Shown here piece by piece: positions 21,216-54,449 of a stretch of DNA of 64,000 nucleotides. The DNA lies in assembly GCA_023078555.1 (NCBI GenBank), contig CM041197.1:6841810-6905809 (forward strand), in the 5' to 3' direction. Origin of the DNA: Ulva prolifera (taxonomy: Eukaryota; Chlorophyta; Ulvophyceae; Ulvales; Ulvaceae). The notes under the pieces are model-generated. The model did not search any database and was not told where the DNA came from. It was given only the letters and a program-made list of their open reading frames with translations. Made by a program: the position numbers and the translations under genes. Position 1 is the stretch's first letter. Each line of letters starts with the position of its first letter.

Positions 21216-24200
21216 TCCCTGTCACCTAGTAGTTGAAAAGTTCACAGGTGCTGAATATGTAGTGTATTGGCTCATCGAGAAAAGATTTTCCACACGTCGA
21301 AGTTGAGTGCTTTACTACAACACACTCCACACATGACATAGGTGTGTGTGACCTTTGCGCACGTCCGTTAAAGAGCAACCGGCTTCCATGTCACCGAAAA
21401 GTTTAAAAGTTCACAGGTGCTGAACATGTAGTGTATTGGCTCATCGAGAAATGATTTTCCACACGTCGAAGTTGAGTGCTTTACTAAAACACACTCTACA
21501 CATGACATAGGTGTGTGTGACCTTTGCGCACGTCCGTTAAGAGCAACATGCTTCCCTGTCACCTTGAATTTGAAAAGTTCACAGGTGATGAATATGTAAT
21601 GTATTGGCTCATCGAGAAAAGATTTTCCACACGTCGAAGTTGAGTGCTTTACTACAACACACTCTACACATGACATAGGTGTGTGTGACCTTTGCGCACG
21701 TCCGTTAAAGAGCAACCGGCTTCCATGTCACCGAAAAGTTTATAAGTTCGCAGGTGCTGAATATGTAATGTATTGGCTCATCGAGAAAATATTTTCCACA
21801 CGTCGAAGTTGAGTGCTTTACTACAACACACTCCACGTGCGTTGTCCATGCACGCCATGTGCGTTGCCCATGCACGGCACGTGCGCACGCCCGCACGACC
21901 AGATATGCACATGCAGTTTGAACAGGTCCATTGCAGACATGAAGAAGGTAATCATTTGGTGCATTCGTGTTTGAGGACGTCCTGGTGCCCAGGAGTGCAT
22001 CCTGCACCATCGCACGTCACGTGCGTTGCCCATGCACGGCACGTACGCATGCCCGCACGACCAGATATGCACTTGCAGGTTTGGCAATTCCTTTGAAGAC
22101 ATAAAGAAGGTAATCATTTGGTGCATTCGTGTTTGAGGACGTCCTGGTGTCCAGGAGTGCTTTGTGCACCATCGCACGCCACGTGCGTTGTCCATGCACG
22201 CCATGTGCGTTGCCCATGCACTGCACGTGCGCACGCCCGCACGACCAGATATGCACATGCAGTTTTAACCGGTCCATTGCAGACATGAAGAAGGTAATCA
22301 TTTGGTGCATTCGTGTTTGAGGACGTCCTGGTGCCCGGGAGTGCATCCTGCACCATCGCACGTCACGTGCGTTGCCCATGCACGGCACGTGCGTTGCCCA
22401 TGCACGGCACGTGCGCACGCCCGCACGACCAGATATGCACTTGCAGGTTTGGCAACTCCTTTGAAGACATAAAGAAGGTAATCATTTAGTGCATTCGTGT
22501 TTGAGGACGTCCTGGTGTCCAGGAGTGCTTTGTGCACCATTGCACGCCACGTGCGTTGTCCATGCACGCCATGTGCGTTGCCCATGCACTGCACGTGCGC
22601 ACGCCCGCACGACCAGATATGCACTTGCAGTTTTAACCGGTCCATTGCAGACATGAAGAAGGTAATCATTTGGTGCATTCGTGTTTGAGGACGTCCTGGT
22701 GCCCAGGAGTGCATCCTGCACCATCGCACGTCACGTGCGTTGCCCATGCACGGCACGTGCGCACGCCCGCACGACCAGATATGCACTTGCAGGTTTGGCA
22801 ATTCCTTTGAAGACATAAAGAAGGTAATTATTTGGTGCATTCGTGTTTGAGGACGTCCTGGTGTCCAGGAGTGCTTTGTGCACCATCGCACGTCACGTGC
22901 GTTGCCCATGCACTGCACGTGCGCACGCCCGCACGACCAGATATGCACTTGCAGTTTTAACCGGTCCATTGCAGACATGAAGAAGGTAATCATATGGTGC
23001 ATTCGTGTTTGAGGACGTCCTGGTGCCCAGGAGTGCATCCTGCACCATCGCACGTCACGTGCGTTGCCCATGCACGGCACGTGCGCACGCCCGCACGACC
23101 AGATATGCACTTGCAGGTTTGGCAATTCCTTTGAAGACATAAAGAAGGTAATTATTTGGTGCATTCGTGTTTGAGGACAACCTGGTGTCCAGGAGTGCTT
23201 TGTGCACCATCGCACGCCACGTGCGTTGTCCATGCACGCCATGTGCGTTGCCCATGCACTGCACGTGCGCACGCCCGCACGACCAGATATGCACTTGCAG
23301 TTTTAACCGGTCCATTGCAGACATGAAGAAGGTAATCATTTGGTGCATTCGTGTTTGAGGACGTCCTGGTGCCCAGGAGTGCATCCTGCACCATCGCACG
23401 TCACGTGCGTTGCCCATGCACGGCACGTGCGCACGCCCGCACGACCAGATATGCACTTGCAGGTTTGGCAATTCCTTTGAAGACATAAAGAAGGTAATCA
23501 TTTGGTGCATTCGTGTTTGAGGACGTCCTGGTGTCCAGGAGAGCTTTGTGCACCATTGCACGCCACGTGCGTTGTCCATGCACGCCATGTGCGTTGCCCA
23601 TGCACTGCACGTGCGCACGCCCGCACGACCAGATATGCACTTGCAGTTTTAACCGGTCCATTGCAGACATGAAGAAGGTACTTATTTGGTGCATTCGTGT
23701 TTGAGGACGTCCTGGTGCCCAGGAGTGCATCCTGCACCATCGCACGTCACGTGCGTTGCCCATGCACGGCACGTGCGCACGCCCGCACGACCAGATATGC
23801 ACTTGCAGGTTTGGCAATTCCTTTGAAGACATAAAGAAGGTAATTATTTGGTGCATTCGTGTTTGAGGACGTCCTGGTGTCCAGGAGTGCTTTGTGCACC
23901 ATCGCACGTCACGTGCGTTGCCCATGCACGGCACGTGCGCACGCCCGCACGACCAGATATGCACTTGCAGGTTTGGCAACTCCTTTGAAGACATAAAGAA
24001 GGTAATCATTTGGTGCATTCGTGTTTGAGGACGTCCTGGTGTCCAGGAGTGCTTTGTGCACCATCGCACGTCACGTGCGTGGCCCATGCACGGCACGTGC
24101 GCACGCCCGCACGACCAGATATGCACTTGCAGGTTTGGCAACTCCTTTGAAGACATAAAGAAGGTAATCATTTGGTGCATTCGTGTTTGAGGACGTCCTG

Positions 24201-39790: not shown

Positions 39791-39792
39791 TT
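39791..39792. other. Left flank of the putative 2-bp target duplication (TT)
   Basis: An intact satellite B unit reads GGTGCATTCGTGTTTG at this point. The left flank stops at GGTGCATT, then the element begins. The right flank restarts at TTCGTGTTTG (51468). With element ends taken flush with the inverted repeats, TT is duplicated. If the first C of the module is instead counted as flank, the shared bases are TTC. The assignment is therefore 2 or 3 bp. Confidence 0.5.
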
Positions 39793-39799
39793 CTGGGTG

Positions 39800-39815
39800 C
39801 CGCAAAAACATAGCA
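39800..39815 (+). repeat. Terminal inverted repeat core, outer left end
   Basis: The 16-bp core CCGCAAAAACATAGCA starts 7 bp inside the outer left end of the composite. Its exact reverse complement lies at 40893-40908, at the other end of the same module, and at 51445-51460, near the outer right end of the composite. A same-strand copy is at 50352-50367. Confidence 0.9.
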
Positions 39816-40112
39816 GTTGCCGCGATCGACATTCTGCAATGATCACCCGGACGTTCCGCATCCAGACCTGGGCAAGATATCGGCAAGGCCTATCCCGAAA
39901 TATTTGTGCTCCCGCTTGAACAATGCTCGAGTGTACTGCTTGATTTTGCTCAGCTGCGGTAACGCATTCCGTGGCGTGCGGGGAAACTCACGGTTTGAAC
40001 GTGACGCCTGAAAAGCTACTTTATGCAGTAAGATCCACCTGCAGCCGCAAGGCAGCCTTGTCTGCGGCATCACAACTGATGAATTTCGACAACGTGAACG
40101 TGTCAGCCGCAC

Positions 40113-40724
40113 TTGAGCTGCTGTCGTGACAACGTGTTGCTCAACACATGTGGCATGCATGGGCCACCTGCCATATGCTCAGGGAAATCAGTATGGTCAC
40201 CATTACAGTGTGGCAGTCAACATTCCACTTCCCGAGGCACCAGGAATATGTGTTGGCACTTGGCTGACAGAGTTGGAGGCAGCGCAGGGCTGGCATGCCT
40301 CACGCATGGCCTTGAACAAGGGCTACCTTTGAGTGGCTGTATCTCTCTGCTGGAGCCTGCAGTGACGAAAACGCAGTTTTTTGGGCCTAGACAACGCCTG
40401 GTACCTTTTCCTCAGCGCCAGCTAACTGGGAGGACTGTTGCGGATCCAGGGAACCAAAAATTACCGCAATCCGAGAAGTATGCACTGAGATATGGATTGT
40501 TGAGTGCACTTGGTCTTGGGCCCCACTTGGAGCTGCACCGAGAGCCCGACTACACGAGCACGCAGATCTGCGGCTGCGTCGCGACGAGGCGCGCTACTGC
40601 GCAGATGATTAGACCTTTATCTATAGATGCTCTGCGATCAGTTTTGTCTCCTGAATTCTTGGATGTGTTACGTGCTGCATGTCCTTCCGTGACCCATGCA
40701 TGTGGGGACCTTCAGTCCGGTTGA
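40113..40724 (+). other. Unrecognised 203-codon open frame in left module
   Basis: This is an uninterrupted frame beginning with TTG, a non-standard start. It contains no domain I recognise; the product would be Cys-rich at its N-terminus. It stays open in the second module copy (50665-51276), where one substitution changes Gln to Leu. With only 7 differences between the copies, that conservation is not evidence of selection. It overlaps the short AP2-like frame in another phase, so at most one of the two is likely to be real. Treat it as unproven. Confidence 0.15.
40159..40332 (+). pseudogene. Short AP2-like fragment, left module
   Basis: A 57-codon ATG frame ends in a stretch VGTWLTELEAAQGWHA that resembles the C-terminal part of an AP2 DNA-binding domain. 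The family pattern there is G-T-F-x-T-x-x-E-A-A-x-A-Y; here G, T, an aromatic, T, E, A, A and an aromatic fall at the right spacing. The preceding HHYSVAVNIPLP may be the beta strands. The frame is much shorter than a full AP2 protein and the usual basic N-terminal strand motif is not clear, so it could be a relic, an exon or chance. AP2 domains are known in plant and algal regulators and in some homing endonucleases. The second module has the same frame at 50711-50884 with Arg to Pro near the end. Confidence 0.25.
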
Positions 40725-40892
40725 GATGCACCACGTCAGCTCGACACTGAGACTCGGACGTCCACCGCTACGCCGACAAATGTCCCAGCATGGATTCCTT
40801 GCACGGCTGTCGGTATCCTCGGGGCGCTGGTAGTATAGTCTACGCCGCCGCCGGCTGTAAGGGCGTATCTCTGACGAGGCCGCTGATTCACG

Positions 40893-40908
40893 TGCTATGT
40901 TTTTGCGG
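40893..40908 (-). repeat. Terminal inverted repeat core, inner end of left module
   Basis: This is the reverse complement of the 16-bp core CCGCAAAAACATAGCA, placed 7 bp from the inner end of the left module. It shows that the module itself, not only the composite, has inverted-repeat ends. Confidence 0.9.
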
Positions 40909-40943
40909 GAGCCTGTGCGTTGGGCTGCCAAGCATCACACAAG

Positions 40944-40972
40944 GTTGGCTGCCGCAATATAAACGAGCCAAC
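40944..40972 (+). promoter_or_regulatory. TATA box inside an inverted repeat upstream of the transposase
   Basis: A perfect TATAAA (40958-40963) lies 72 bp before the transposase ATG and 43 bp after the left module ends. It is centred in an inverted repeat with 7-bp perfect arms, GTTGGCT at 40944-40950 and AGCCAAC at 40966-40972, and a 15-bp spacer. The arms could be an operator-like site or chance. The position fits a core promoter for the downstream gene. No transcript data are available. Confidence 0.45.
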
Positions 40973-41029
40973 GTACTCATATATATTCAAAAATCTGATC
41001 CCGAGAGTCTTGACGCACATGCATGAGCT

Positions 41030-42136
41030 ATGCCAGCTTTACCGCTCGAGCAGCGAGTCGCTATTCAGCAGCTCCACCGCCTGGGAATCGCACACGGCAA
41101 GATTGCGAAGGATCTCGTCGTGCACATATCGACAGTCAAGAGATGGGCAGCGAGGGACGACAAGACCGGCTCTGTTGCCCTGGGCACGTCTCCCGGGCGG
41201 CGTCGACTGCTCTCACGGGCAGTGTGCCAGAGAGCTCTGGGTCTGCTCCTGTCGGGAGAAGCTGGTGGCGCAAGGTTCGTCGCTATGCAGATCTTCAGTG
41301 AGGGGCTGTCAACAGTGCGCGTCTCGCCGTGCACGCTGATTCGTGCCGTCAAGCGCTACACTGCTGAGAAGGGCGAGACCCTCATGTGCTTGCGTGGCAG
41401 ACCGCCAAAGGTGATGACTGTGCTCACGCGCGCTAAGCGCAAGCAGTTCGCATCCAAGAACCTCGGCCGCAGCTGGAAGCACGTGATAATCACCGACCGT
41501 TGTCGCTTCTATTTTAGGTTTCCGGGGTCGCGTGTTTCTCGAACGCGCTGGGCTTTGAGGTCGTTGAAGCACGCAGAGGGCGTGTTCACTCCGAACAAGC
41601 CCATGTGCTACAATGTTTATGGTGGCATTACTCGCTATGGTGTGACCAAACTGCATGCAGTGACTGGCACCAGCAAGAGGAAGTCTGTGTACACAAACCA
41701 GAAGGGCCAGGTGGCCAGGAATATCACCAAGGGTGAGTATAGGGATGTTTTACAGAGCACTCTGCTGAAGGAGGGCAGGAGGATTTTTTCAGGCCAAGGC
41801 ATGCATGGCTTTGTGCTGCAGCAAGACAATGATCCTTGCCACACTGCAGCTCAGGGCGTGGTCCAGGCCTGGAATGCAAAGCCTCGTGGTGGGGTGGTGA
41901 CTGTTTTGCAGCAGTGGCCAGGAAATTCTCCAGATTTGAGTCCTATTGAGAACGTGTGGGCGTGGGTGGATGCTGAGGTGGCACAGCAGGGCTGCTCAAC
42001 TTTTGAAAATTTTTGCAAGGAAGTGGATAAGACATTTGCAAGGATCCCTGGGACAATGCTAGAGAACCTGTTTGATTCAATTCCTGAGAGACTGCAGAGA
42101 TGCCTTGACCTTGATGGGCACAAGACAGGGTGGTAA
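41030..42136 (+). CDS. Tc1/mariner-type transposase (DDE, 368 aa)
   Basis: The product is a cut-and-paste transposase acting in the nucleus on DNA ends. Residues about 5-45 form a first helix-turn-helix (VHISTVKRWAA as recognition part) and about 60-110 a second, followed by a GRPPK linker (122-127). The catalytic domain shows D156 in VIITDRCRFYF, D266 in VLQQDNDPCH and E307 in the WPGNSPDLSPIENVW motif; YNVYGGITRYGV (194-205) is also typical. All three acidic residues are present and the frame has no stop or shift, so it may be active. There are 40 residues between D266 and E307 rather than the usual 34. The ATG is chosen because an in-frame TGA lies two codons upstream. No introns are apparent. 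The first half is more GC-rich than the second. I found no convincing inverted repeats or TA duplication closely flanking the gene. Confidence 0.93.
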   Translation: MPALPLEQRVAIQQLHRLGIAHGKIAKDLVVHISTVKRWAARDDKTGSVALGTSPGRRRLLSRAVCQRALGLLLSGEAGGARFVAMQIFSEGLSTVRVSPCTLIRAVKRYTAEKGETLMCLRGRPPKVMTVLTRAKRKQFASKNLGRSWKHVIITDRCRFYFRFPGSRVSRTRWALRSLKHAEGVFTPNKPMCYNVYGGITRYGVTKLHAVTGTSKRKSVYTNQKGQVARNITKGEYRDVLQSTLLKEGRRIFSGQGMHGFVLQQDNDPCHTAAQGVVQAWNAKPRGGVVTVLQQWPGNSPDLSPIENVWAWVDAEVAQQGCSTFENFCKEVDKTFARIPGTMLENLFDSIPERLQRCLDLDGHKTGW

Positions 42137-42519
42137 GAGGGAGGTGGTGCATGGCCATGTGGAGGGCACCTACTGTGTCTGACACTCTGTGTGTACACAG
42201 ACTTGTAAACTAACAATAGGATGCCTGCTAGCCATCACTGCTGCAATATATCATGCACTGTTATCATCTGAGGTCATCTAGTTGTGAATCAATTGCATGA
42301 TCACCAATCAGGATGGCTTTTAAATAGAGTGAAGCCCACAAGCAGCTGGCCTCATGCAAAACCAAGCAGCACAATCTGCACCAAGCATGCTGCATGCTCA
42401 CATTCATACATGCACAGTCATGTTGGATCACCACAGATATGTCTTGCATGTACTGTGGTGGCAGTTCCTGATCACAGGCTGCTGATTCAGATGAGTGAGG
42501 AGGATCACAGCAGGAGTCT
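42137..42519. other. Transposase 3' flank, unique sequence
   Basis: About 380 bp lie between the stop codon and the first recognisable satellite C sequence. They hold the TGTAA motif and TG/CA-rich, TGCATG-rich sequence of the same flavour as satellite C. I see no further gene and no inverted repeat that would close the transposase unit here. Short open frames on both strands show nothing recognisable. Confidence 0.6.
42204..42208 (+). terminator. Possible TGTAA polyadenylation signal
   Basis: TGTAA occurs 68 bp after the transposase stop codon, within ACTTGTAAAC. TGTAA is the established poly(A) signal of chlorophyte green algae. No AATAAA lies in the first 100 bp downstream. A five-base match is weak evidence by itself. 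Confidence 0.3.
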
Positions 42520-42800
42520 TCCTTGCTGAGCAAGAGCACAGCCCCTTGCTTGTAGAGTGCCCATCACACCTGTGCCAGTGCATGCAGCACCTGCCTCCCA
42601 AGACCTCTGCAGACCCTGTCCTCTTGACACACACACAATAGAGGACTCATGTGCTCACCTGCCAAGTGGCTGCAGCTAATTGTGTCAGGGGAGGATGCAA
42701 GCATTGATGGCAGTGGGTTGGTGTGCATTCACCCAACACCCATGCTGTCAGCCCAATCTGGCACTAGCATGATAGGCCTGAGGCACTCAGTGGAACAGGA
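42520..42800. repeat. Divergent left-edge monomer of satellite C
   Basis: Recognisable but degraded satellite C sequence: TGCCAGTGCATGCAGCACCTGCC is followed by CAATAGAGGACTCATGTG in place of CTAGTGGACTAATATG, and by GGATGCAAGCATTG in place of GGATGCATGCACTG. It becomes typical by about 42800. Upstream of about 42520 similarity fades out. Confidence 0.7.
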
Positions 42801-44243
42801 TACATTCCTGAGGTCTCTGTGATGTTCCTGGTGTGTGTGTGCATGGTGGATGGTGGTGCTGCCACTCTGAAAGGTGCTGGTGAGCTGTGCTGCTTGTGAA
42901 AGCACAAGGCCTCCATGGGCTTGGCCAGTGCATGCAGCACCTGCCTCCCCAGACCTGTGCAGACCCTGCCCTCTTGATACACACCTACTAGTGGACGAAT
43001 ATGTTCACCTGCCAAGTGGCTGCAGCAGATTGTGTCAGGAGAGGATGCATGCACTGATGGCAGTGGCTTGGTGTGCATTCACCCAACACCCATGCTGTCA
43101 GCCCCATCTGGCACTGGCATGATAGGCCTGAGGCACTCAGTGAAACAGGATACATTCCTGAGGTCTCTGTGATGTTCCTGGTGTGTGTGTGCATGGTGGA
43201 TGGTGGTGCTGCCACTCTGAAAGGTGCTGGTGAGCTGTGCTGCTTGTGAAAGCACAAGGCCTCCATGGGCTTGGCCAGTGCATGCAGCACCTGCCTCCCC
43301 AGGCCTGTGCAGACCCTGCCCTCTTGATACACACCTACTAGTGGACTAATATGTTCACCTGCCAAGTGGCTGCAGCAGATTGTGTCAGGAGAGGATGCAT
43401 GCACTGATGGCAGTGGCTTGGTGTGCATTCACCCAACACCCATGCTGTCAGCCCCATCTGGCACTGGCATGATAGGCCTGAGGCACTCAGTGAAACAGGA
43501 TACATTCCTGAGGTCTCTGTGATGTTCCTGGTGTGTGTGTGCATGGTGGATGGTGGTGCTGCCACTCTGAAAGGTGCTGGTGAGCTGTGCTGCTTGTGAA
43601 AGCACAAGGCCTCCATGGGCTTGGCCAGTGCATGCAGCACCTGCCTCCCCAGACCTGTGCAGACCCTGCCCTCTTGATACACACCTACTAGTGGACTAAT
43701 ATGTTCACCTGCCAAGTGGCTGCAGCAGATTGTGTCAGGAGAGGATGCATGCACTGATGGCAGTGGCTTGGTGTGCATTCACCCAACACCCATGCTGTCA
43801 GCCCCATCTGGCACTGGCATGATAGGCCTGAGGCACTCAGTGAAACAGGATACATTCCTGAGGTCTCTGTGATGTTCCTGGTGTGTGTGTGTGCATGGTG
43901 GATGGTGGTGCTGCCACTCTGGAAGGTGCTGGTGAGCTGTGCTGCTTGTGAAAGCACAAGGCCTCCATGGGCTTGGCCAGTGCATGCAGCACCTGCCTCC
44001 CCAGACCTGTGCAGACCCTGCCCTCTTGATAAACACCTACTAGTGGACTAATATGTTCACCTGCCAAGTGGCTGCAGCTGATTGTGTCAGGGGAGGATGC
44101 ATGCACTGCTGGCAGTGGCTTGGTGTGCATTCACCCAACACCCATGCTGTCAGCCCCATCTGGCACTGGCATGATAGGCCTGAGGCACTCAGTGAAACAG
44201 GATACATTCCTGAGGTCTCTGTGATGTTCCTGGTGTGTGTGTG

Positions 44244-45637
44244 CATGGTGGATGGTGGTGCTGCCACTCTGGAAGGTGCTGGTGAGCTGTGCTGCTTGTG
44301 AAAGCACAAGGCCTCCATGGGCTTGGCCAGTGCATGCAGCATCTGCCTCCCCAGACCTGTGCAGACCCTGCCCTCTTGACACACACCTACTAGTGGACTA
44401 ATATGTTCACCTGCCAAATGGCTGCAGCTGATTGTGTCAGGGGGGATGCATGCACTGCTGGCAGTGGCTTGGTGTGCATTCACCCAACACCCATGCTGTC
44501 AGCCCAATCAGGCACTAGCATGATAGGCCTGAGGCACTCAGTGAAACATGATGCATTCCTGAGGTCTCTGTGATGTTACTGGTGTGTGTGTGTGTGTGTG
44601 CATGGTGGATGGTGGTGCTGCCACTCTGGAAGGTGCTGGTGAGCTGTGCTGCTTGTGAAAGCACAAGGCCTCCATGGGCTTGGCCAGTGCATGCAGCACC
44701 TGCCTCCCCAGACCTGTGCAGACCCTGCCCTCTTGATACACACCTACTAGTGGACTAATATGTTCACCTGCCAAGTGGCTGCAGCAGATTGTGTCAGGAG
44801 AGGATGCATGCACTGATGGCAGTGGCTTGGTGTGCATTCACCCAACACCCATGCTGTCAGCCCCATCTGGCACTGGCATGATAGGCCTGAGGCACTCAGT
44901 GAAACAGGATACATTCCCGAGGTCTCTGTGATGTTCCTGGTGTGTGTGTGCATGGTGGATGGTGGTGCTGCCACTCTGAAAGGTGCTGGTGAGCTGTGCT
45001 GCTTGTGAAAGCACAAGGCCTCCATGGGCTTGGCCAGTGCATGCAGCACCTGCCTCCCCAGACCTGTGCAGACCCTGCCCTCTTGATACACACCTACTAG
45101 TGGACTAATATGTTCACCTGCCAAGTGGCTGCAGCAGATTGTGTCAGGAGAGGATGCATGCACTGATGGCAGTGGCTTGGTGTGCATTCACCCAACACCC
45201 ATGCTGTCAGCCCCATCTGGCACTGGCATGATAGGCCTGAGGCACTCAGTGAAACAGGATACATTCCTGAGGTCTCTGTGATGTTCCTGGTGTGTGTGTG
45301 CATGGTGGATGGTGGTGCTGCCACTCTGGAAGGTGCTGGTGAGCTGTGCTGCTTGTGAAAGCACAAGGCCTCCATGGGCTTGGCCAGTGCATGCAGCATC
45401 TGCCTCCCCAGACCTGTGCAGACCCTGCCCTCTTGACACACACCTACTAGTGGACTAATATGTTCACCTGCCAAATGGCTGCAGCTGATTGTGTCAGGGG
45501 GGATGCATGCACTGCTGGCAGTGGCTTGGTGTGCATTCACCCAACACCCATGCTGTCAGCCCAATCAGGCACTAGCATGATAGGCCTGAGGCACTCAGTG
45601 AAACATGATGCATTCCCGAGGTCTCTGTGATGTTACT

Positions 45638-45670
<33 letters not shown>

Positions 45671-46631
45671 ATGGTGGATGGTGGTGCTGCCACTCTGGAA
45701 GGTGCTGGTGAGCTGTGCTGCTTGTGAAAGCACAAGGCCTCCATGGGCTTGGCCAGTGCATGCAGCACCTGCCTCCCCAGACCTGTGCAGACCCTGCCCT
45801 CTTGACACACACCTACTAGTGGACTAATATGTTCACCTGCCAAGTGGCTGCAGCTGATTGTGTCAGGGGGGATGCATGCACTGATGGCAGTGGCTTGGTG
45901 TGCATTCACCCAACACCCATGCTGTCAGCCCAATCAGGCACTAGCATGATAGGCCTGAGGCACTCAGTGAAACATGATGCATTCCTGAGGTCTCTGTGAT
46001 GTTACTGGTGTGTGTGTGCATGGTGGATGGTGGTGCTTCCACTCTGGAAGGTGCTGGTGAGCTGTGCTGCTTGTGAAAGCACAAGGCCTCCATGGGCTTG
46101 GCCAGTGCATGCAGCACCTGCCTCCCCAGACCTGTGCAGACCCTGTCCTCTTGACACACACCAACTAGTGGACTAATATGTTCACCTGCCAAGTGGCTGC
46201 AGCTGATTGTGTCAGGGGAGGATGCATGCACTGCTGGCAGTGGCTTGGTGTGCATTCACCCAACACCCATGCTGTCAGCCCAATCTGGCACTGGCATGAT
46301 AGGCCTGAGGCACTCAGTGAAACAGGATACATTCCTGAGGTCTCTGTGATGTTCCTGGTGTGTGTGTGCATGGTGGATGGTGGTGCTGCCACTCTGGAAG
46401 GTGCTGGTGAGCTGTGCTGCTTGTGAAAGCACAAGGCCTCCATGGGCTTGGCCAGTGCATGCAGCACCTGCCTCCCCAGACCTGTGCAGACCCTGTCCTC
46501 TTGACACACACCAACTAGTGGACTAATATGTTCACCTGCCAAGTGGCTGCAGCTGATTGTGTCAGGGGAGGATGCATGCACTGCTGGCAGTGGCTTGGTG
46601 CGCATTCACCCAACACCCATGCTGTCAGCCC
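44244..46631. repeat. 2,388-bp duplicated segment of satellite C, copy 1
   Basis: This is repeated at 46721-49108 with a constant offset of 2,477 bp, about seven units. All spot checks matched, including unusual features such as the long GT run, GGGGGGATGC, and TGCTTCCACTC in place of TGCTGCCACTC. The left limit is set by a 2-bp length difference in the GT run just before 44244. The right limit is the A/C difference at 46632/49109. Confidence 0.85.
45639..45669. repeat. Expanded (GT)15 microsatellite in satellite C
   Basis: The GT run, 11-13 bases in most satellite C units, is 31 bases here. An equally long copy lies at 48116-48146, inside the partner of the 2,388-bp duplication, so expansion came before duplication. 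Intermediate 19-base runs are at 44582-44600 and 47059-47077. Confidence 0.95.
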
Positions 46632-46720
46632 AATCAGGCACTAGCATGATAGGCCTGAGGCACTCAGTGGAACAGGATACATTCCTGAGGTCTCTGTGAT
46701 GTTCCTGGTGTGTGTGTGTG

Positions 46721-48114
46721 CATGGTGGATGGTGGTGCTGCCACTCTGGAAGGTGCTGGTGAGCTGTGCTGCTTGTGAAAGCACAAGGCCTCCATGGGCT
46801 TGGCCAGTGCATGCAGCATCTGCCTCCCCAGACCTGTGCAGACCCTGCCCTCTTGACACACACCTACTAGTGGACTAATATGTTCACCTGCCAAATGGCT
46901 GCAGCTGATTGTGTCAGGGGGGATGCATGCACTGCTGGCAGTGGCTTGGTGTGCATTCACCCAACACCCATGCTGTCAGCCCAATCAGGCACTAGCATGA
47001 TAGGCCTGAGGCACTCAGTGAAACATGATGCATTCCTGAGGTCTCTGTGATGTTACTGGTGTGTGTGTGTGTGTGTGCATGGTGGATGGTGGTGCTGCCA
47101 CTCTGGAAGGTGCTGGTGAGCTGTGCTGCTTGTGAAAGCACAAGGCCTCCATGGGCTTGGCCAGTGCATGCAGCACCTGCCTCCCCAGACCTGTGCAGAC
47201 CCTGCCCTCTTGATACACACCTACTAGTGGACTAATATGTTCACCTGCCAAGTGGCTGCAGCAGATTGTGTCAGGAGAGGATGCATGCACTGATGGCAGT
47301 GGCTTGGTGTGCATTCACCCAACACCCATGCTGTCAGCCCCATCTGGCACTGGCATGATAGGCCTGAGGCACTCAGTGAAACAGGATACATTCCCGAGGT
47401 CTCTGTGATGTTCCTGGTGTGTGTGTGCATGGTGGATGGTGGTGCTGCCACTCTGAAAGGTGCTGGTGAGCTGTGCTGCTTGTGAAAGCACAAGGCCTCC
47501 ATGGGCTTGGCCAGTGCATGCAGCACCTGCCTCCCCAGACCTGTGCAGACCCTGCCCTCTTGATACACACCTACTAGTGGACTAATATGTTCACCTGCCA
47601 AGTGGCTGCAGCAGATTGTGTCAGGAGAGGATGCATGCACTGATGGCAGTGGCTTGGTGTGCATTCACCCAACACCCATGCTGTCAGCCCCATCTGGCAC
47701 TGGCATGATAGGCCTGAGGCACTCAGTGAAACAGGATACATTCCTGAGGTCTCTGTGATGTTCCTGGTGTGTGTGTGCATGGTGGATGGTGGTGCTGCCA
47801 CTCTGGAAGGTGCTGGTGAGCTGTGCTGCTTGTGAAAGCACAAGGCCTCCATGGGCTTGGCCAGTGCATGCAGCATCTGCCTCCCCAGACCTGTGCAGAC
47901 CCTGCCCTCTTGACACACACCTACTAGTGGACTAATATGTTCACCTGCCAAATGGCTGCAGCTGATTGTGTCAGGGGGGATGCATGCACTGCTGGCAGTG
48001 GCTTGGTGTGCATTCACCCAACACCCATGCTGTCAGCCCAATCAGGCACTAGCATGATAGGCCTGAGGCACTCAGTGAAACATGATGCATTCCCGAGGTC
48101 TCTGTGATGTTACT

Positions 48115-48147
<33 letters not shown>

Positions 48148-49108
48148 ATGGTGGATGGTGGTGCTGCCACTCTGGAAGGTGCTGGTGAGCTGTGCTGCTT
48201 GTGAAAGCACAAGGCCTCCATGGGCTTGGCCAGTGCATGCAGCACCTGCCTCCCCAGACCTGTGCAGACCCTGCCCTCTTGACACACACCTACTAGTGGA
48301 CTAATATGTTCACCTGCCAAGTGGCTGCAGCTGATTGTGTCAGGGGGGATGCATGCACTGATGGCAGTGGCTTGGTGTGCATTCACCCAACACCCATGCT
48401 GTCAGCCCAATCAGGCACTAGCATGATAGGCCTGAGGCACTCAGTGAAACATGATGCATTCCTGAGGTCTCTGTGATGTTACTGGTGTGTGTGTGCATGG
48501 TGGATGGTGGTGCTTCCACTCTGGAAGGTGCTGGTGAGCTGTGCTGCTTGTGAAAGCACAAGGCCTCCATGGGCTTGGCCAGTGCATGCAGCACCTGCCT
48601 CCCCAGACCTGTGCAGACCCTGTCCTCTTGACACACACCAACTAGTGGACTAATATGTTCACCTGCCAAGTGGCTGCAGCTGATTGTGTCAGGGGAGGAT
48701 GCATGCACTGCTGGCAGTGGCTTGGTGTGCATTCACCCAACACCCATGCTGTCAGCCCAATCTGGCACTGGCATGATAGGCCTGAGGCACTCAGTGAAAC
48801 AGGATACATTCCTGAGGTCTCTGTGATGTTCCTGGTGTGTGTGTGCATGGTGGATGGTGGTGCTGCCACTCTGGAAGGTGCTGGTGAGCTGTGCTGCTTG
48901 TGAAAGCACAAGGCCTCCATGGGCTTGGCCAGTGCATGCAGCACCTGCCTCCCCAGACCTGTGCAGACCCTGTCCTCTTGACACACACCAACTAGTGGAC
49001 TAATATGTTCACCTGCCAAGTGGCTGCAGCTGATTGTGTCAGGGGAGGATGCATGCACTGCTGGCAGTGGCTTGGTGCGCATTCACCCAACACCCATGCT
49101 GTCAGCCC
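46721..49108. repeat. 2,388-bp duplicated segment of satellite C, copy 2
   Basis: This is the second copy of the seven-unit segment that starts at 44244. Equal GT-run lengths in both copies (19 and 31 bases) show that little time has passed since the duplication, because such runs change length easily. Confidence 0.85.
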
Positions 49109-49689
49109 CATCTGGCACTGGCATGATAGGCCTGAGGCACTCAGTGAAACAGGATACATTCCTGAGGTCTCTGTGATGTTCCTGGTGTGTGTGTGCATGG
49201 TGTATGGTGGTGCTGCCACTCTGGAAGGTGCTGGTGAGCTGTGCTGCTTGTGAAAGCACAAGGCCTCCATGGGCTTGGCCAGTGCATGCAGCACCTGCCT
49301 CCCCAGACCTGTGCAGACCCTGCCCTCTTGATAACCACCAACTAGTGGACTAATATGTTCACCTGCCAAGTGGCTGCAGCTGATTGTGTCAGGGGAGGAT
49401 GCATGCACTGCTGGCAGTGGCTTGGTGTGCATTCACCCAACACCCATGCTGTCAGCCCCATCTGGCACTGGCATGATAGGCCTGCGGCACTCAGTGAAAA
49501 AGGATACATTCCTGAGGTCTCTGTGATGTTCCTGGTGTGTGTGTGCATGGTGTATGGTGGTGCTGCCACTCTGGAAGGTGCTGGTGAGCTGTGCTGCTTG
49601 TGAAAGCACAAGGCCTCCATGGGCTTGGCCAGTGCATGCAGCATCTGCCTCCCCAGACCTGTGCAGACCCTGCCCTCTTGACACAAACA

Positions 49690-49985
49690 CAAGAGTGATC
49701 TCATATGTGCACCTGCCAAGTGGATTGAGCTGATTGTGTCATGGGATGATACATGCATTGATGAAACTGGGTTGGTGTGCATTCACCCAACACCCAGGCT
49801 GTCAGTCCAATGTGGCACTAGCTTGATAGGCCTGAGGCCCTCAGCGATGCATGATGAATGCCCGAGGTCTCTGTGATGTTCCTGGTGTGTGGGTGAATGG
49901 TGGGTGGTGGTTCTGCCACTCTGGAACGTGCTGGTGAGCTGTGCTGCTTGTGCAAGCACAAGGCCTCCATCGGCATGCAGCATGG
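49690..49985. repeat. Divergent right-edge monomer of satellite C
   Basis: This last, degraded unit has substitutions throughout, for example GTGTCATGGGATGATACATGC in place of the usual GTGTCAGGGGAGGATGCATGC, and CAGCGATGCATGATGAATGC. It stops at CCATCGGCATGCAGCATGG. The next bases are unique sequence. Confidence 0.75.
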
Positions 49986-50344
49986 CGTGTTCGCGAGGAC
50001 AACATTATATGCTTCATACAAATTCGCTTGCGTATATATTGATTACATGGGCTCCATAGCGTTTATAGCTGCATACCATTCGAAGCCCGCGGGATTCTGC
50101 ATTGTGAGGACCAATTCCGGCAGCTGGAACGCTGCTGTTCAGCACCCAGAGACAACGAAATTAACCAGTTGTTCTGCTACATCCGGTGCCACGCCTGTTG
50201 CGTGCAGCCGATTTCTCGCGTCTGCGTTGCTACATTGTTGGGTAATTGAATCACTGACGCTCTGGGTGACAAATGACTGATACAAGGAGAAAACTGGAAT
50301 TATCTAGACATCCTGTGTGTCGGAGATTCTGTCGTGGCATCGGA
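49986..50344. other. Unique tail between satellite C and right module
   Basis: This stretch of 359 bp of single-copy sequence is more AT-balanced than the satellites. A 127-codon frame (49897-50280) starts inside satellite C and runs into it; I recognise no domain in the product. No inverted repeat matching the module ends is seen at its borders. It may be the original 3' end of the internal element or captured host DNA. Confidence 0.5.
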
Positions 50345-50664
50345 CTGGGTGCCGCAAAAACATAGCAGTTGCCGCGATCGACATTCTGCAATGATCACCC
50401 GGACGTTCCGCATCCAGACCTGGGCAAGATATCGGCAAGGCCTATCCCGAAATATTTGTGCTCCCGCTTGAACAATGCTCGAGTGTACTGCTTGATTTTG
50501 CTCAGCTGCGGTAACGCATTCCGTGGCGTGCGGGGAAACTCACGGTTTGAACGTGACGCCTGAAAAGCTACTTTATGCAGTAAGATCCACCTGCAGCCGC
50601 AAGGCAGCCTTGACTGCGGCATCACAACTGATGAATTTCGACAACGTGATCGTGTCAGCCGCAC

Positions 50665-51276
50665 TTGAGCTGCTGTCGTGACAACGTGTTGCTCAACACA
50701 TGTGGCATGCATGGGCCACCTGCCATATGCTCAGGGAAATCAGTATGGTCACCATTACAGTGTGGCAGTCAACATTCCACTTCCCGAGGCACCAGGAATA
50801 TGTGTTGGCACTTGGCTGACAGAGTTGGAGGCAGCGCAGGGCTGGCATGCCTCACCCATGGCCTTGAACAAGGGCTACCTTTGAGTGGCTGTATCTCTCT
50901 GCTGGAGCCTGCAGTGACGAAAACGCAGTTTTTTGGGCCTAGACAACGCCTGGTACCTTTTCCTTTGCGCCAGCTAACTGGGAGGACTGTTGCGGATCCA
51001 GGGAACCAAAAATTACCGCAATCCGAGAAATATGCACTGAGATATGGATTGTTGAGTGCACTTGGTCTTGGGCCCCACTTGGAGCTGCACCGAGAGCCCG
51101 ACTACACGAGCACGCAGATCTGCGGCTGCGTCGCGACGAGGCGCGCTACTGCGCAGATGATTAGACCTTTATCTATAGATGCTCTGCGATCAGTTTTGTC
51201 TCCTGAATTCTTGGATGTGTTACGTGCTGCATGTCCTTCCGTGACCCATGCATGTGGGGACCTTCAGTCCGGTTGA
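50665..51276 (+). other. Unrecognised 203-codon open frame in right module
   Basis: This is the second copy of the frame at 40113-40724, with one Gln-to-Leu change and the same TTG start. No recognisable domain is present. It is listed only for completeness. Confidence 0.15.
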
Positions 51277-51444
51277 GATGCACCACGTCAGCTCGACACT
51301 GAGACTCGGACGTCCACCGCTACGCCGACAAATGTCCCAGCATGGATTCCTGGCACGGCTGTCGGTATCCTCGGGGCGCTGGTAGTATAGTCTACGCCGC
51401 CGCCGGCTGTAAGGGCGTATCTCTGACGAGGCCGCTGATTCACG

Positions 51445-51460
51445 TGCTATGTTTTTGCGG
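51445..51460 (-). repeat. Terminal inverted repeat core, outer right end
   Basis: This is the reverse complement of CCGCAAAAACATAGCA, 7 bp inside the outer right end of the composite. Together with 39800-39815 it forms the inverted-repeat pair of the whole 11.7-kb block. Confidence 0.9.
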
Positions 51461-54449
51461 GAGCCTGTTCGTGTTTGAGGACGTCCTGGTGTCCAGGAGT
51501 GCTTTGTGCACCATCGCACGTCACGTGCGTTGCCCATGCACGGCACGTGCGCACGCCCGCACGATTAGATATGCACATGCAGTTTTAACCGATCCATTGC
51601 AGACATGAAGAAGGTAATCATTTGGTGCATTCGTGTTTGAGGACGTCCTGGTGCCCAGGAGTGCATCCTGCACCATCGCACGTCACGTGCGTTGCCCATG
51701 CACGGCACGTGCGCACGCCCGCACGACCAGATATGCACTTGCAGGTTTGGCAATTCCTTTGAAGACATAAAGAAGGTAATCATTTGGTGCATTCGTGTTT
51801 GAGGACGTACTGGTGTCCAGGAGTGCTTTGTGCACCATTGCACGCCACGTGCGTTGTCCATGCACGCCATGTGCGTTGCCAATGCACGGCACGTGCGCAC
51901 GCCCGCACGACCAGATATGCACATGCAGTTTTAACCGGTCCATTGCAGACATGAAGAAGGTAATCATTTGGTGCATTCGTGTTTGAGGACGTCCTGGTGC
52001 CCAGGAGTGCATCATGCACCATCGCACGTCACGTGCGTTGCCCATGCACGGCACGTGCGCACGCCCGCACGACCAGATATGCACTTGCAGGTTTGGCAAT
52101 TCCTTTGAAGACATAAAGAAGGTAATTATTTGGTGCATTCGTGTTTGAGGACGTCCTGGTGTCCAGGAGTGCTTTGTGCACCATCGCACGTCACGTGCGT
52201 TGCCCATGCACGGCACGTGCGCACGCCCGCACGACCAGATATGCACTTGCAGGTTTGGCAACTCCTTTGAAGACATAAAGAAGGTAATCATTTGGTGCAT
52301 TCGTGTTTGAGGACGTCCTGGTGTCCAGGAGTGCTTTGTGCACCATCGCACGTCACGTGCGCTGCCCATGCACGGCACGTGCGCACGCCCGCACGACCAG
52401 ATATGCACTTACAGGTTTGGCAACTCCTTTGAAGACATAAAGAAGGTAATCATTTGGTGCATTCGTGTTTGAGGACGTACTGGTGTCCAGGAGTGCTTTG
52501 TGCACCATCGCCCGCCACGTGCGTTGTCCCTGCACGCCATGTGCGTTGCCAATGCACGGCACGTGCGCACGCCCGCACGACCAGATATGCACATGCAGTT
52601 TTAACCGATCCATTGCAGACATGAAGAAGGTAATCATTTGGTGCATTCGTGTTTGAGGACGTCCTGGTGTCCAGGAGTGCTTTGTGCACCATCGCACGTC
52701 ACGTGCGTTGCCCATGCACGGCACGTGCGCACGCCCGCACGACCAGATATGCACATGAAGTTTTAACCGGTCCATTGCAGACATGAAGAAGGTAATCATT
52801 TGGTGCATTCGTGTTTGAGGACGTACTGGTGTCCAGGAGTGCTTTGTGCACCATTGCACGCCACGTGCGTTGTCCATGCACGCCATGTGCGTTGCCAATG
52901 CACGGCACGTGCGCACGCCCGCACGACCAGATATGCACATGCAGTTTTAACCGATCCATTGCAGACATGAAGAAGGTAATCATTTGGTGCATTCGTGTTT
53001 GAGGACGTCCTGGTGCCCAGGAGTGCATCCTGCACCATCGCACGTCACGTGCGTTGCCCATGCACGGCACGTGCGCATGCCCGCACGACCAGATACGCAC
53101 TTGCAGGTTTGGCAATTCCTTTGAAGACATAAAGAAGGTAATCATTTGGTGCATTCGTGTTTGAGGACGTACTGGTGTCCAGGAGTGCTTTGTGCACCAT
53201 CGCACGCCACGTGCGTTGTCCCTGCACGCCATGTGCGTTGCCAATGCACGGCACGTGCGCACGCCCGCACGACCAGATATGCACATGCAGTTTTAACCGA
53301 TCCATTGCAGACATGAAGAAGGTAATCATTTGGTGCATTCGTGTTTGAGGACGTCCTGGTGTCCAGGAGTGCTTTGTGCACCATCGCACGTCACGTGCGT
53401 TGCCCATGCACGGCACGTGCGCACGCCCGCACGACCAGATATGCACTTGCAGGTTTGGCAATTCCTTTGAAGACATAAAGAAGGTAATTATTTGGTGCAT
53501 TCGTGTTTGAGGACGTCCTGGTGTCCAGGAGTGCTTTGTGCACCATCGCACGTCACGTGCGTTGCCCATGCACGGCACGTGCGCACGCCCGCACGACCAG
53601 ATATGCACTTGCAGGTTTGGCAATTCCTTTGAAGACATAAAGAAGGTAATCATTTGGTGCATTCGTGTTTGAGGACAACCTGGTGTCCAGGAGTGCTTTG
53701 TGCACCATCGCACGCCACGTGCGTTGTCCATGCACGCCATGTGCGTTGCCCATGCACGGCACGTGCGCACGCCCGCACGACCAGATATGCACATGAAGTT
53801 TTAACCGGTCCATTGCAGACATGAAGAAGGTAATTATTTGGTGCATTCGTGTTTGAGGACGTCCTGGTGTCCAGGAGTGCTTTGTGCACCATCGCACGTC
53901 ACGTGCGTTGCCCATGCACGGCACGTGCGCATGCCCGCACGACCAGATATGCACTTGCAGGTTTGGCAACTCCTTTGAAGACATAAAGAAGGTAATCATT
54001 TGGTGCATTCGTGTTTGAGGACGTCCTGGTGTCCAGGAGTGCTTTGTGCACCATCGCACGTCACGTGCGTTGCCCATGCACGGCACGTGCGCACGCCCGC
54101 ACGACCAGATATGCACTTGCAGGTTTGGCAACTCCTTTGAAGACATAAAGAAGGTAATCATTTGGTGCATTCGTGTTTGAGGACGTCCTGGTGTCCAGGA
54201 GTGCTTTGTGCACCATTGCACGCCACGTGCGTTGTCCATGCACGCCATGTGCGTTGCCCATGCACTGCACGTGCGCACGCCCGCACGACCAGATATGCAC
54301 TTGCAGTTTTAACCGGTCCATTGCAGACATGAAGAAGGTAATCATTTGGTGCATTCGTGTTTGAGGACGTCCTGGTGTCCAGGAGTGCTTTGTGCACCAT
54401 CGCACGTCACGTGCGTTGCCCATGCACGGCACGTGCGCACGCCCGCACG

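Follow-up and report, generated by a model that had tools for sequence, protein, structure and literature searches.

Paired inverted-repeat modules around a Tc1-type transposase gene and a tandem repeat in Ulva prolifera: a probable composite DNA transposon

A block at positions 39793–51467 of the window (the whole stretch of Ulva prolifera DNA analysed, 64,000 nucleotides) consists of a module, a transposase gene, a satellite array, a tail and a second module in direct orientation, and is in our judgement probably a composite DNA transposon, in which paired non-autonomous modules surround an IS630/Tc1-type transposase and a tandem repeat. Modules, transposase and satellite appear to move together as one block. 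The layout of the original prediction, two inverted-repeat modules around a transposase and a satellite, was confirmed by the coordinates and by the TT/TT flanks (Table 1). The structure is real and beyond chance, since the 88.9-Mb assembly holds at least 41 rows of module matches and at least 7 rows of transposase matches. It is unusual in two respects: the transposase sits in the cargo between the modules and outside both, whereas in the classical IS-based form it is encoded by a module, and the target duplication is mostly not TA.

Table 1. Features of the block and of its immediate flanks, in window coordinates.
Feature	Position	Strand	Basis or remark
Target duplication, left copy (TT)	39791..39792	.	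In satellite B; flank read
Left module, 1,123 bp, non-coding, inverted-repeat ends of about 22 bp	39793..40915	+	Repeat and end comparison
Inner junction TGCG past the left module	40916..40919	+	Fits NNYG, the right target half-site
Transposase gene, 368 aa	41030..42136	+	Single open frame; triad by motif
350-bp satellite, 21 units, about 7.4 kb	42574..49977	+	Tandem-repeat analysis
370-bp tail, terminal CGGA fits CRNN, the left target half-site	49975..50344	+	Segment comparison
Right module, direct orientation, 1,123 bp, 99.4% identical to left	50345..51467	+	Repeat comparison
Target duplication, right copy (TT)	51468..51469	.	Flank read

A second comparison of the two modules gave 99.3% identity over 1,128 bp. 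Each is bounded, as had been predicted, by its own imperfect inverted repeats (CTGGGTGCCGCAAAAACATAGC ... GCTATGTTTTTGCGGGAGCCTG), 22–23 nt long by eye and computed for the left module as 21 nt at 90% complementarity. That the module could be a second gene was ruled out by substitutions evenly spread over the codon positions, by 7 stop changes and by the loss of the long frame. Among the module matches listed, 24 rows are near full length, namely 14 solo modules, 9 that belong to composites and 1 that belongs to a truncated one; one of the solos (L026) is interrupted near one end. The inverted-repeat core was matched 54 times in all, 53 times within the module rows and once at the displaced end of L026.

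The candidate transposase carries a catalytic triad, assigned by motif, of D156, D266 and E307, with 40 residues separating the last two. Its sole solved-structure match at E up to 0.001 was Sleeping Beauty (5cr4, E 9.5e-10), and Pfam DDE_3 was matched at E 9.7e-6 with 25.9 bits, under the curated cut-off of 28.6; matches to HTH_29 and HTH_23, which would indicate an N-terminal helix-turn-helix, likewise scored under the cut-off. Of nine transposase-region rows listed, six are full length, all with an open frame and all lying between direct modules, and a seventh (contig 1, 203 bp) adjoins a module. Inverted repeats belonging to the transposase itself were sought inside the block, and the best match (at 40945, 15 of 22) was discarded as not significant, because a score of at least 15 was also reached by 134 of 300 random sequences generated with a Markov chain. 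A search for viral relatives with six peptide patterns, a method that detects close relatives only, matched 0 viral contigs. LTR retrotransposons make a 4–6 bp duplication and carry a long repeat with TG...CA ends; the 2-bp duplication and the CT...TG repeat ends contradict such a reading of the block, and no reverse transcriptase was recognised by eye among the window open reading frames of at least 120 aa, two of which were scanned against Pfam.

Full composites occur at other loci. On contig 9 a complete 5.7-kb copy lies in unrelated DNA with the duplication GC/GC, and on contig 2 a 25.3-kb tandem composite (hereafter the array), with 5 modules and 4 transposases, lies in satellite B with the duplication AA/AA; all three complete composite loci, the window block included, have a target duplication outside the module pair. 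Copies elsewhere with duplications of 2–3 bp had been foreseen at a size of 11.7 kb, and the copies are there at other sizes, since satellite length and unit number vary. The module is therefore not restricted to solo copies, although solos that carry a duplication of their own are frequent. The flanks of the window block rejoin within satellite B, as predicted, and a search for the empty site found the 31-base sequence across the rejoined site intact at 816 places in the assembly, 814 of them on the forward and 2 on the reverse strand. The array occupies the same position of the satellite B monomer in the opposite orientation; a sharing of flanks between the array and the solo L021 was indistinguishable from the satellite background. 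When the joined contig 9 flanks were searched in the assembly, the sole match near the insertion was the locus itself, with an overlap of exactly 2 bp, and an empty copy of this site was not found. In the window, the array and contig 9 the inner junctions are identical over 14 bases at each of the two junctions, and the 14 bases following the left module are also present at the contig 1 locus.

Exact 2-bp duplications were read in all 22 insertions with both ends readable (3 composites and 19 solo or interrupted modules, each of the 19 having its own). The sequence C-R-NN-Y-G fits 20 of these insertions, vs a background of 2.0%. The 22 include L033, L034 with L063, and an insertion on contig 3 at 9741143-9742370, and without these there remain 19 duplications and 18/19 fits to CRNNYG; three diverged module relatives (70–78% identity, one readable end each) do not match the target half-site. 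A 2-bp stagger at a palindromic site is the typical product of the IS630/Tc1-type transposase class. The assignment to Tc1/mariner made at the outset holds for the DDE transposase, which is of Tc1 type, but strict membership fails on one defining feature, as the duplicated dinucleotide is TA in 6 insertions and not TA in 16, TA being the signature duplication of Tc1/mariner (PMC4344528). The two inner junctions both match target half-sites (chance 2.1%) with different dinucleotides, TG and GA, a pattern suggesting that a module inserted on two separate occasions, once on each side of a transposase.

The satellite changes in length between loci, with 21 units of 350 bp in the window, 8, 8, 8 and 9 in the array and 4 on contig 9, and it is nearly private to the composite block. 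The first unit is orthologous across the three loci; on contig 9 it is the only clear ortholog, since the last unit there, with 25 differences to the last window unit and 21 to an interior unit, is no closer to the former. The tail was found in 6/6 internal segments examined. Judged by their substitutions, modules tend to resemble each other within a locus, clearly at the contig 9 and array loci and weakly in the window: the left and right modules of contig 9 have 6 private changes in common, the array modules 1 and the window pair 1, and neither the left modules nor the right modules are grouped by any private change. The claim of within-locus homogenisation is weakened by the right module of the window, which shows 5 site differences to the array modules and 7 to its own left partner, and good support in the module tree is confined to 2 of its 17 inner branches. 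The internal segments, compared over 1,658 positions, differ by 6–7 between contig 9 and the array and by 12–13 between the window and the array, whereas the modules give the reverse order, with the array closer to the window than to contig 9; thus, the parts of the block do not have one simple shared history. Two of the internal segments of the array show 0 differences in 4,831 bp.

We propose that two modules inserted independently, one on each side of a transposase gene and a tandem repeat, and that the encoded transposase would recognise the module ends. Acting on both ends of one module it would move a solo module, and acting on the two outermost ends, the left one of the left module and the right one of its partner, it would move the whole block; insertion in each case would be by a 2-bp stagger at C-R-NN-Y-G. 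The link between this presumed mover and the module ends is one of association. The long direct modules would then recombine together, giving tandem arrays, probably some of the solos, and the module resemblance within loci, and the internal satellite would grow and shrink during travel.

The module might not be an independent element: it could be the long direct repeat at the termini of a single ancestral DNA transposon of LTR-like design, with all solos arising by recombination, as solo LTRs do, and we regard this as possible, if doubtful. The clustering by locus of the contig 9 and of the array modules, the excess of solos over modules in composites and the very existence of an array with shared modules accord with it, but both inverted-repeat ends are present on every module, the inner junctions are such as two insertions would leave, and the right module of the window is closer to the array modules than to the left one. 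Moreover, for the oldest near-full solos, 89–90% identical, the region matches contain no transposase remnant of comparable age beyond a 77-bp piece at 78%. It is less likely that the transposase is a passenger, with an unrelated transposase elsewhere moving the modules and the block being mobile as two of them happen to flank the gene. The scarcity of TA duplications, set against the Tc1/mariner signature (PMC4344528), is what such a passenger might leave; nevertheless, every match to the inverted-repeat core belongs to a module, intact or interrupted, and all full transposase copies have kept their frame. The 2-bp stagger on a palindromic site also fits this class of transposase.

An immobile block, copied by segmental duplication or by satellite-mediated exchange, is very improbable. 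It would sit well with two of the three composite loci lying in satellite B on one contig, and with the solo L021 having the site and orientation of the array, but it is largely excluded on contig 9 by unrelated flanks with a 2-bp duplication; duplication along with the flanks is disfavoured too, as it would not yield the opposite orientations of the window and array copies relative to satellite B. Since these two copies share satellite and contig, some room must nevertheless be left for satellite exchange at both. Slightest of all is the chance of an assembly artefact: identical segments such as those of the array can be misplaced or miscounted by assemblers, but the contig 9 copy lies outside the satellite and the loci are distinguished by substitutions. 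The composite transposon stays our preferred reading, and for its stronger form, a self-sufficient eukaryotic composite with ends supplied by the modules, a transposase in the cargo, an LTR-like cycle through solo, unit and tandem-array forms, a target that is relaxed and symmetric (CRNNYG in place of TA) and a satellite copy number changing between insertions, we see evenly balanced chances.

In maize Ac, the transposase is encoded inside the element. The Ac/Ds macrotransposons of maize, blocks with Ac 5' and 3' termini that excise and whose number can rise, are a eukaryotic precedent for mobility through the termini of paired elements; they differ by their Ac/fAc termini, 8-bp duplication and host DNA cargo (PMC9910405), whereas the present element has non-coding modules, a transposase as cargo, three loci and a nearly private satellite. 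MITE-flanked structures of Acinetobacter likewise set non-autonomous modules around a cargo, in a composite-transposon-like manner, but they are bacterial and carry integrons or other genes (PMC6382973) rather than a candidate transposase together with a satellite. The Sleeping Beauty/Tc1 family shares the 2-bp duplication, and Sleeping Beauty can also use non-TA sites, which follow an asymmetric pattern and are presented as mainly aberrant (PMC5801840, PMC7987939); the site found here is symmetric, its central dinucleotide varies, and the duplications on either side are exact. The D-D40-E spacing recurs in Tc1-OP1 of Ogataea, a single 5,659-bp element with one 1,155-aa protein, and the accessible part of its report mentions no composite modules (PMC9977792). 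In Coe1 of sugar beet, too, direct repeats enclose the gene of a DNA transposase and a tandem repeat lies within the block, and its authors speculate on flanking MITEs and transposase-driven movement; however, its transposase is CACTA-type, its repeats measure 169 bp and the surrounding element is a putative LTR retrotransposon, and evidence of multi-site movement does not appear in the accessible text (PMC2426827). Bari1 clusters and Tetris of Drosophila are comparable as heterochromatic tandem arrays of Tc1/mariner elements and satellites linked to DNA transposons, and are not presented as composite in the accessible part of that source (PMC9659126), whereas here the satellite lies inside the block and is almost private to it. 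In the titles and abstract openings searched, largely from outside the subscription journals, no Tc1-type composite with a cargo transposase was described, which falls short of proof that none exists.

If the proposed reading is true, the bacterial route by which two small transposons make a larger one works in a eukaryotic lineage too and can yield a spreading unit, in a natural system with solo, unit and array forms side by side. A satellite would be delivered in this way to new places on the chromosomes, and the Tc1-type transposase may have swapped TA for a flanking CR/YG rule.

The original prediction of a composite transposon was borne out as to its parts, the direct modules, the transposase and the satellite all being present at 39793-51467 of the window. 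There, two direct 1,123-bp modules, each ending in imperfect inverted repeats, enclose a single open transposase frame (368 aa), 21 units of a private 350-bp satellite and a 370-bp tail. In the window, two satellite arrays meet near position 21830, satellite A (169-bp) occupying 1-21833 and satellite B (162/184-bp) 21829-64000; this region of contig 2 is a candidate centromere, by position only. The uninterrupted satellite B site occurs at 816 places in the assembly and, among the matches listed, those on contig 2 begin at 6.466 Mb.

Positions and content of the window, the block and the other complete composites (M, module; I, internal segment)
Feature	Location	Positions	Description
Window	contig 2	6841810-6905809	assembly of 88.9 Mb, 44 contigs
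Block	window	39793-51467	11.7 kb; embedded in satellite B, TT on either side
Composite	contig 9	3143264-3148936	5.7 kb; 4 satellite units
Composite array	contig 2	6490724-6516008	25.3 kb; order M-I-M-I-M-I-M-I-M; 8, 8, 8, 9 satellite units

Further composites, as the prediction proposed, were sought in the assembly and found on contigs 9 and 2; other full composites thus exist, but not at the expected 11.7 kb. The module search gave at least 41 matches, 24 of them nearly full and 17 split, partial or diverged. Of the near-full ones, composites hold 9 and a truncated composite on contig 1 holds another; the other 14 are solo, L026 among them being interrupted near one end. For the transposase region there were at least nine matches: six full copies, a 203-bp stub on contig 1 and two fragments (90 and 77 bp). 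Direct modules flank all six full copies. Apart from every module match, the 3'-terminal 90 bp of the transposase region and pieces of satellite units lie on contig 2 (L053 and L054, 3181538-3192836), with about 10.8 kb of other sequence in between.

The composite on contig 9 gives the cleanest case for movement as a unit. When 250 bp of its left flank were joined to 250 bp of the right one, each side gave one full match, the two overlapping by the 2-bp duplication; no empty copy of the site was found among the best 40 of 64 candidates scored. The other 39 matches were weaker (76-89% identical) and confined to the right flank, starting about 155 bp past the insertion; they mark a dispersed repeat there. 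The inner junctions are the same as in the window composite. The window and array insertions share one position in satellite B, but their orientations are opposite. A solo module in satellite B at 7.002 Mb (L021, contig 2, 7002034-7003149) shares position and orientation with the array, and in its right flank satellite B ends after 69 bp.

The flanking dinucleotide was exactly duplicated in all 22 insertions of the module search with both ends readable (TA 6, AA 5, TT 3, GC 2, TG 2, and CC, GG, AG and CA one each), although L021 and the array, lying at one satellite B site, may not be independent. These 22 include six broken by an insert (L026, L030, L031, L034, L035/36 and contig 3 at 9741143, where about 86 bp separate the two pieces). 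In two of the 22, L033 and that on contig 3, the module end itself is substituted. The motif C-R-NN-Y-G, where NN is the duplicated dinucleotide, was present at 20/22 sites, the exceptions being L025 (G for Y) and L033 (T for G); the background rate, taken from 33.6 kb of flanking DNA, is 2.0% of positions. Where a single end was readable, the half-site was matched by L024, L037 and the module on contig 3 at 10989524, and by none of three diverged relatives of 70-78% identity on contigs 5, 6 and 8. Module relatives of 75-78% identity on contigs 5 (823414), 6 (7714206) and 8 (3112397) suggest an older subfamily; the readable ends of those on contigs 6 and 8 depart from the half-site. In L026/L066 (contig 7, 5512322-5514538), extra sequence of about 1.1 kb sits within the inverted-repeat end, and the outer TT duplication is intact.

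The same target rule bears on the origin of the composite. The four bases following the left module (TGCG) and the four preceding the right one (CGGA) each match one half of it, the chance of both fitting being 2.1%. Since the two inner dinucleotides differ, they are accounted for by two separate module insertions and not by one insertion with a later tandem duplication; as evidence for two insertions at the origin this is modest and falls short of proof.

Exchange between direct modules would have produced the arrays, some of the solo copies and a partial homogenisation. A tree built from 23 modules groups the contig 9 pair firmly (99/98), with looser grouping for the window pair (92/86) and the array set (89/77); the tool marked just 2 of 17 inner branches as well supported. 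Private changes numbered six in the contig 9 pair, one in the window pair and one in the array set; none united all left or all right modules. Against grouping within loci, the window right module differs from array modules at 5 positions and from its own left partner at 7. Four of the five array modules are identical, as are two internal segments across 4,831 bp. Contig 9 and the array differ at 6-7 of 1,658 positions in the internal segment and 13-15 of 1,123 in the modules, the window and the array at 12-13 and 5-9, respectively; these conflicting histories also point to exchange.

The first satellite unit is orthologous at all three loci (window against array 1 difference, against contig 9 7), the last clearly so only between window and array (3-5), that of contig 9 showing 25 differences to the window's last unit and 21 to the nearest interior one; for the array, the comparison was confined to segments 2 and 4. 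The interior expands through segment duplication, units 6-11 of the window being identical to units 13-18. Outside the composites, the assembly search found nothing beyond short related stretches of 56 to 346 bp. Four pieces of 187-190 bp on contig 1 (3529005, 3642871, 3681241 and 3715726), 85% like the private satellite, are possibly part of another repeat.

Among solved structures (E up to 0.001), the transposase matched only Sleeping Beauty, and its Pfam DDE_3 score was below the cut-off. Its triad, by motif, is D156, D266 and E307, with 40 residues separating the last two; a D-D40-E Tc1 element is described in yeast (PMC9977792). The predicted Tc1/mariner-type gene resembles the Tc1 type in its Sleeping Beauty match; strict Tc1/mariner membership was rejected because TA is duplicated in only 6/22 insertions. 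Window and array copies differ by 2 synonymous and 4 replacement substitutions, too few for an argument on selection; the open frames fit recent activity.

We classed the block as a variant composite transposon whose transposase is of IS630/Tc1 type. Maize Ac macrotransposons (PMC9910405) are a known eukaryotic case of paired-element mobility, and composites bracketed by MITEs are known in bacteria (PMC6382973); the Ulva element differs from both in that it combines non-coding modules, a cargo-borne transposase, a carried satellite and a symmetric, mostly non-TA target.
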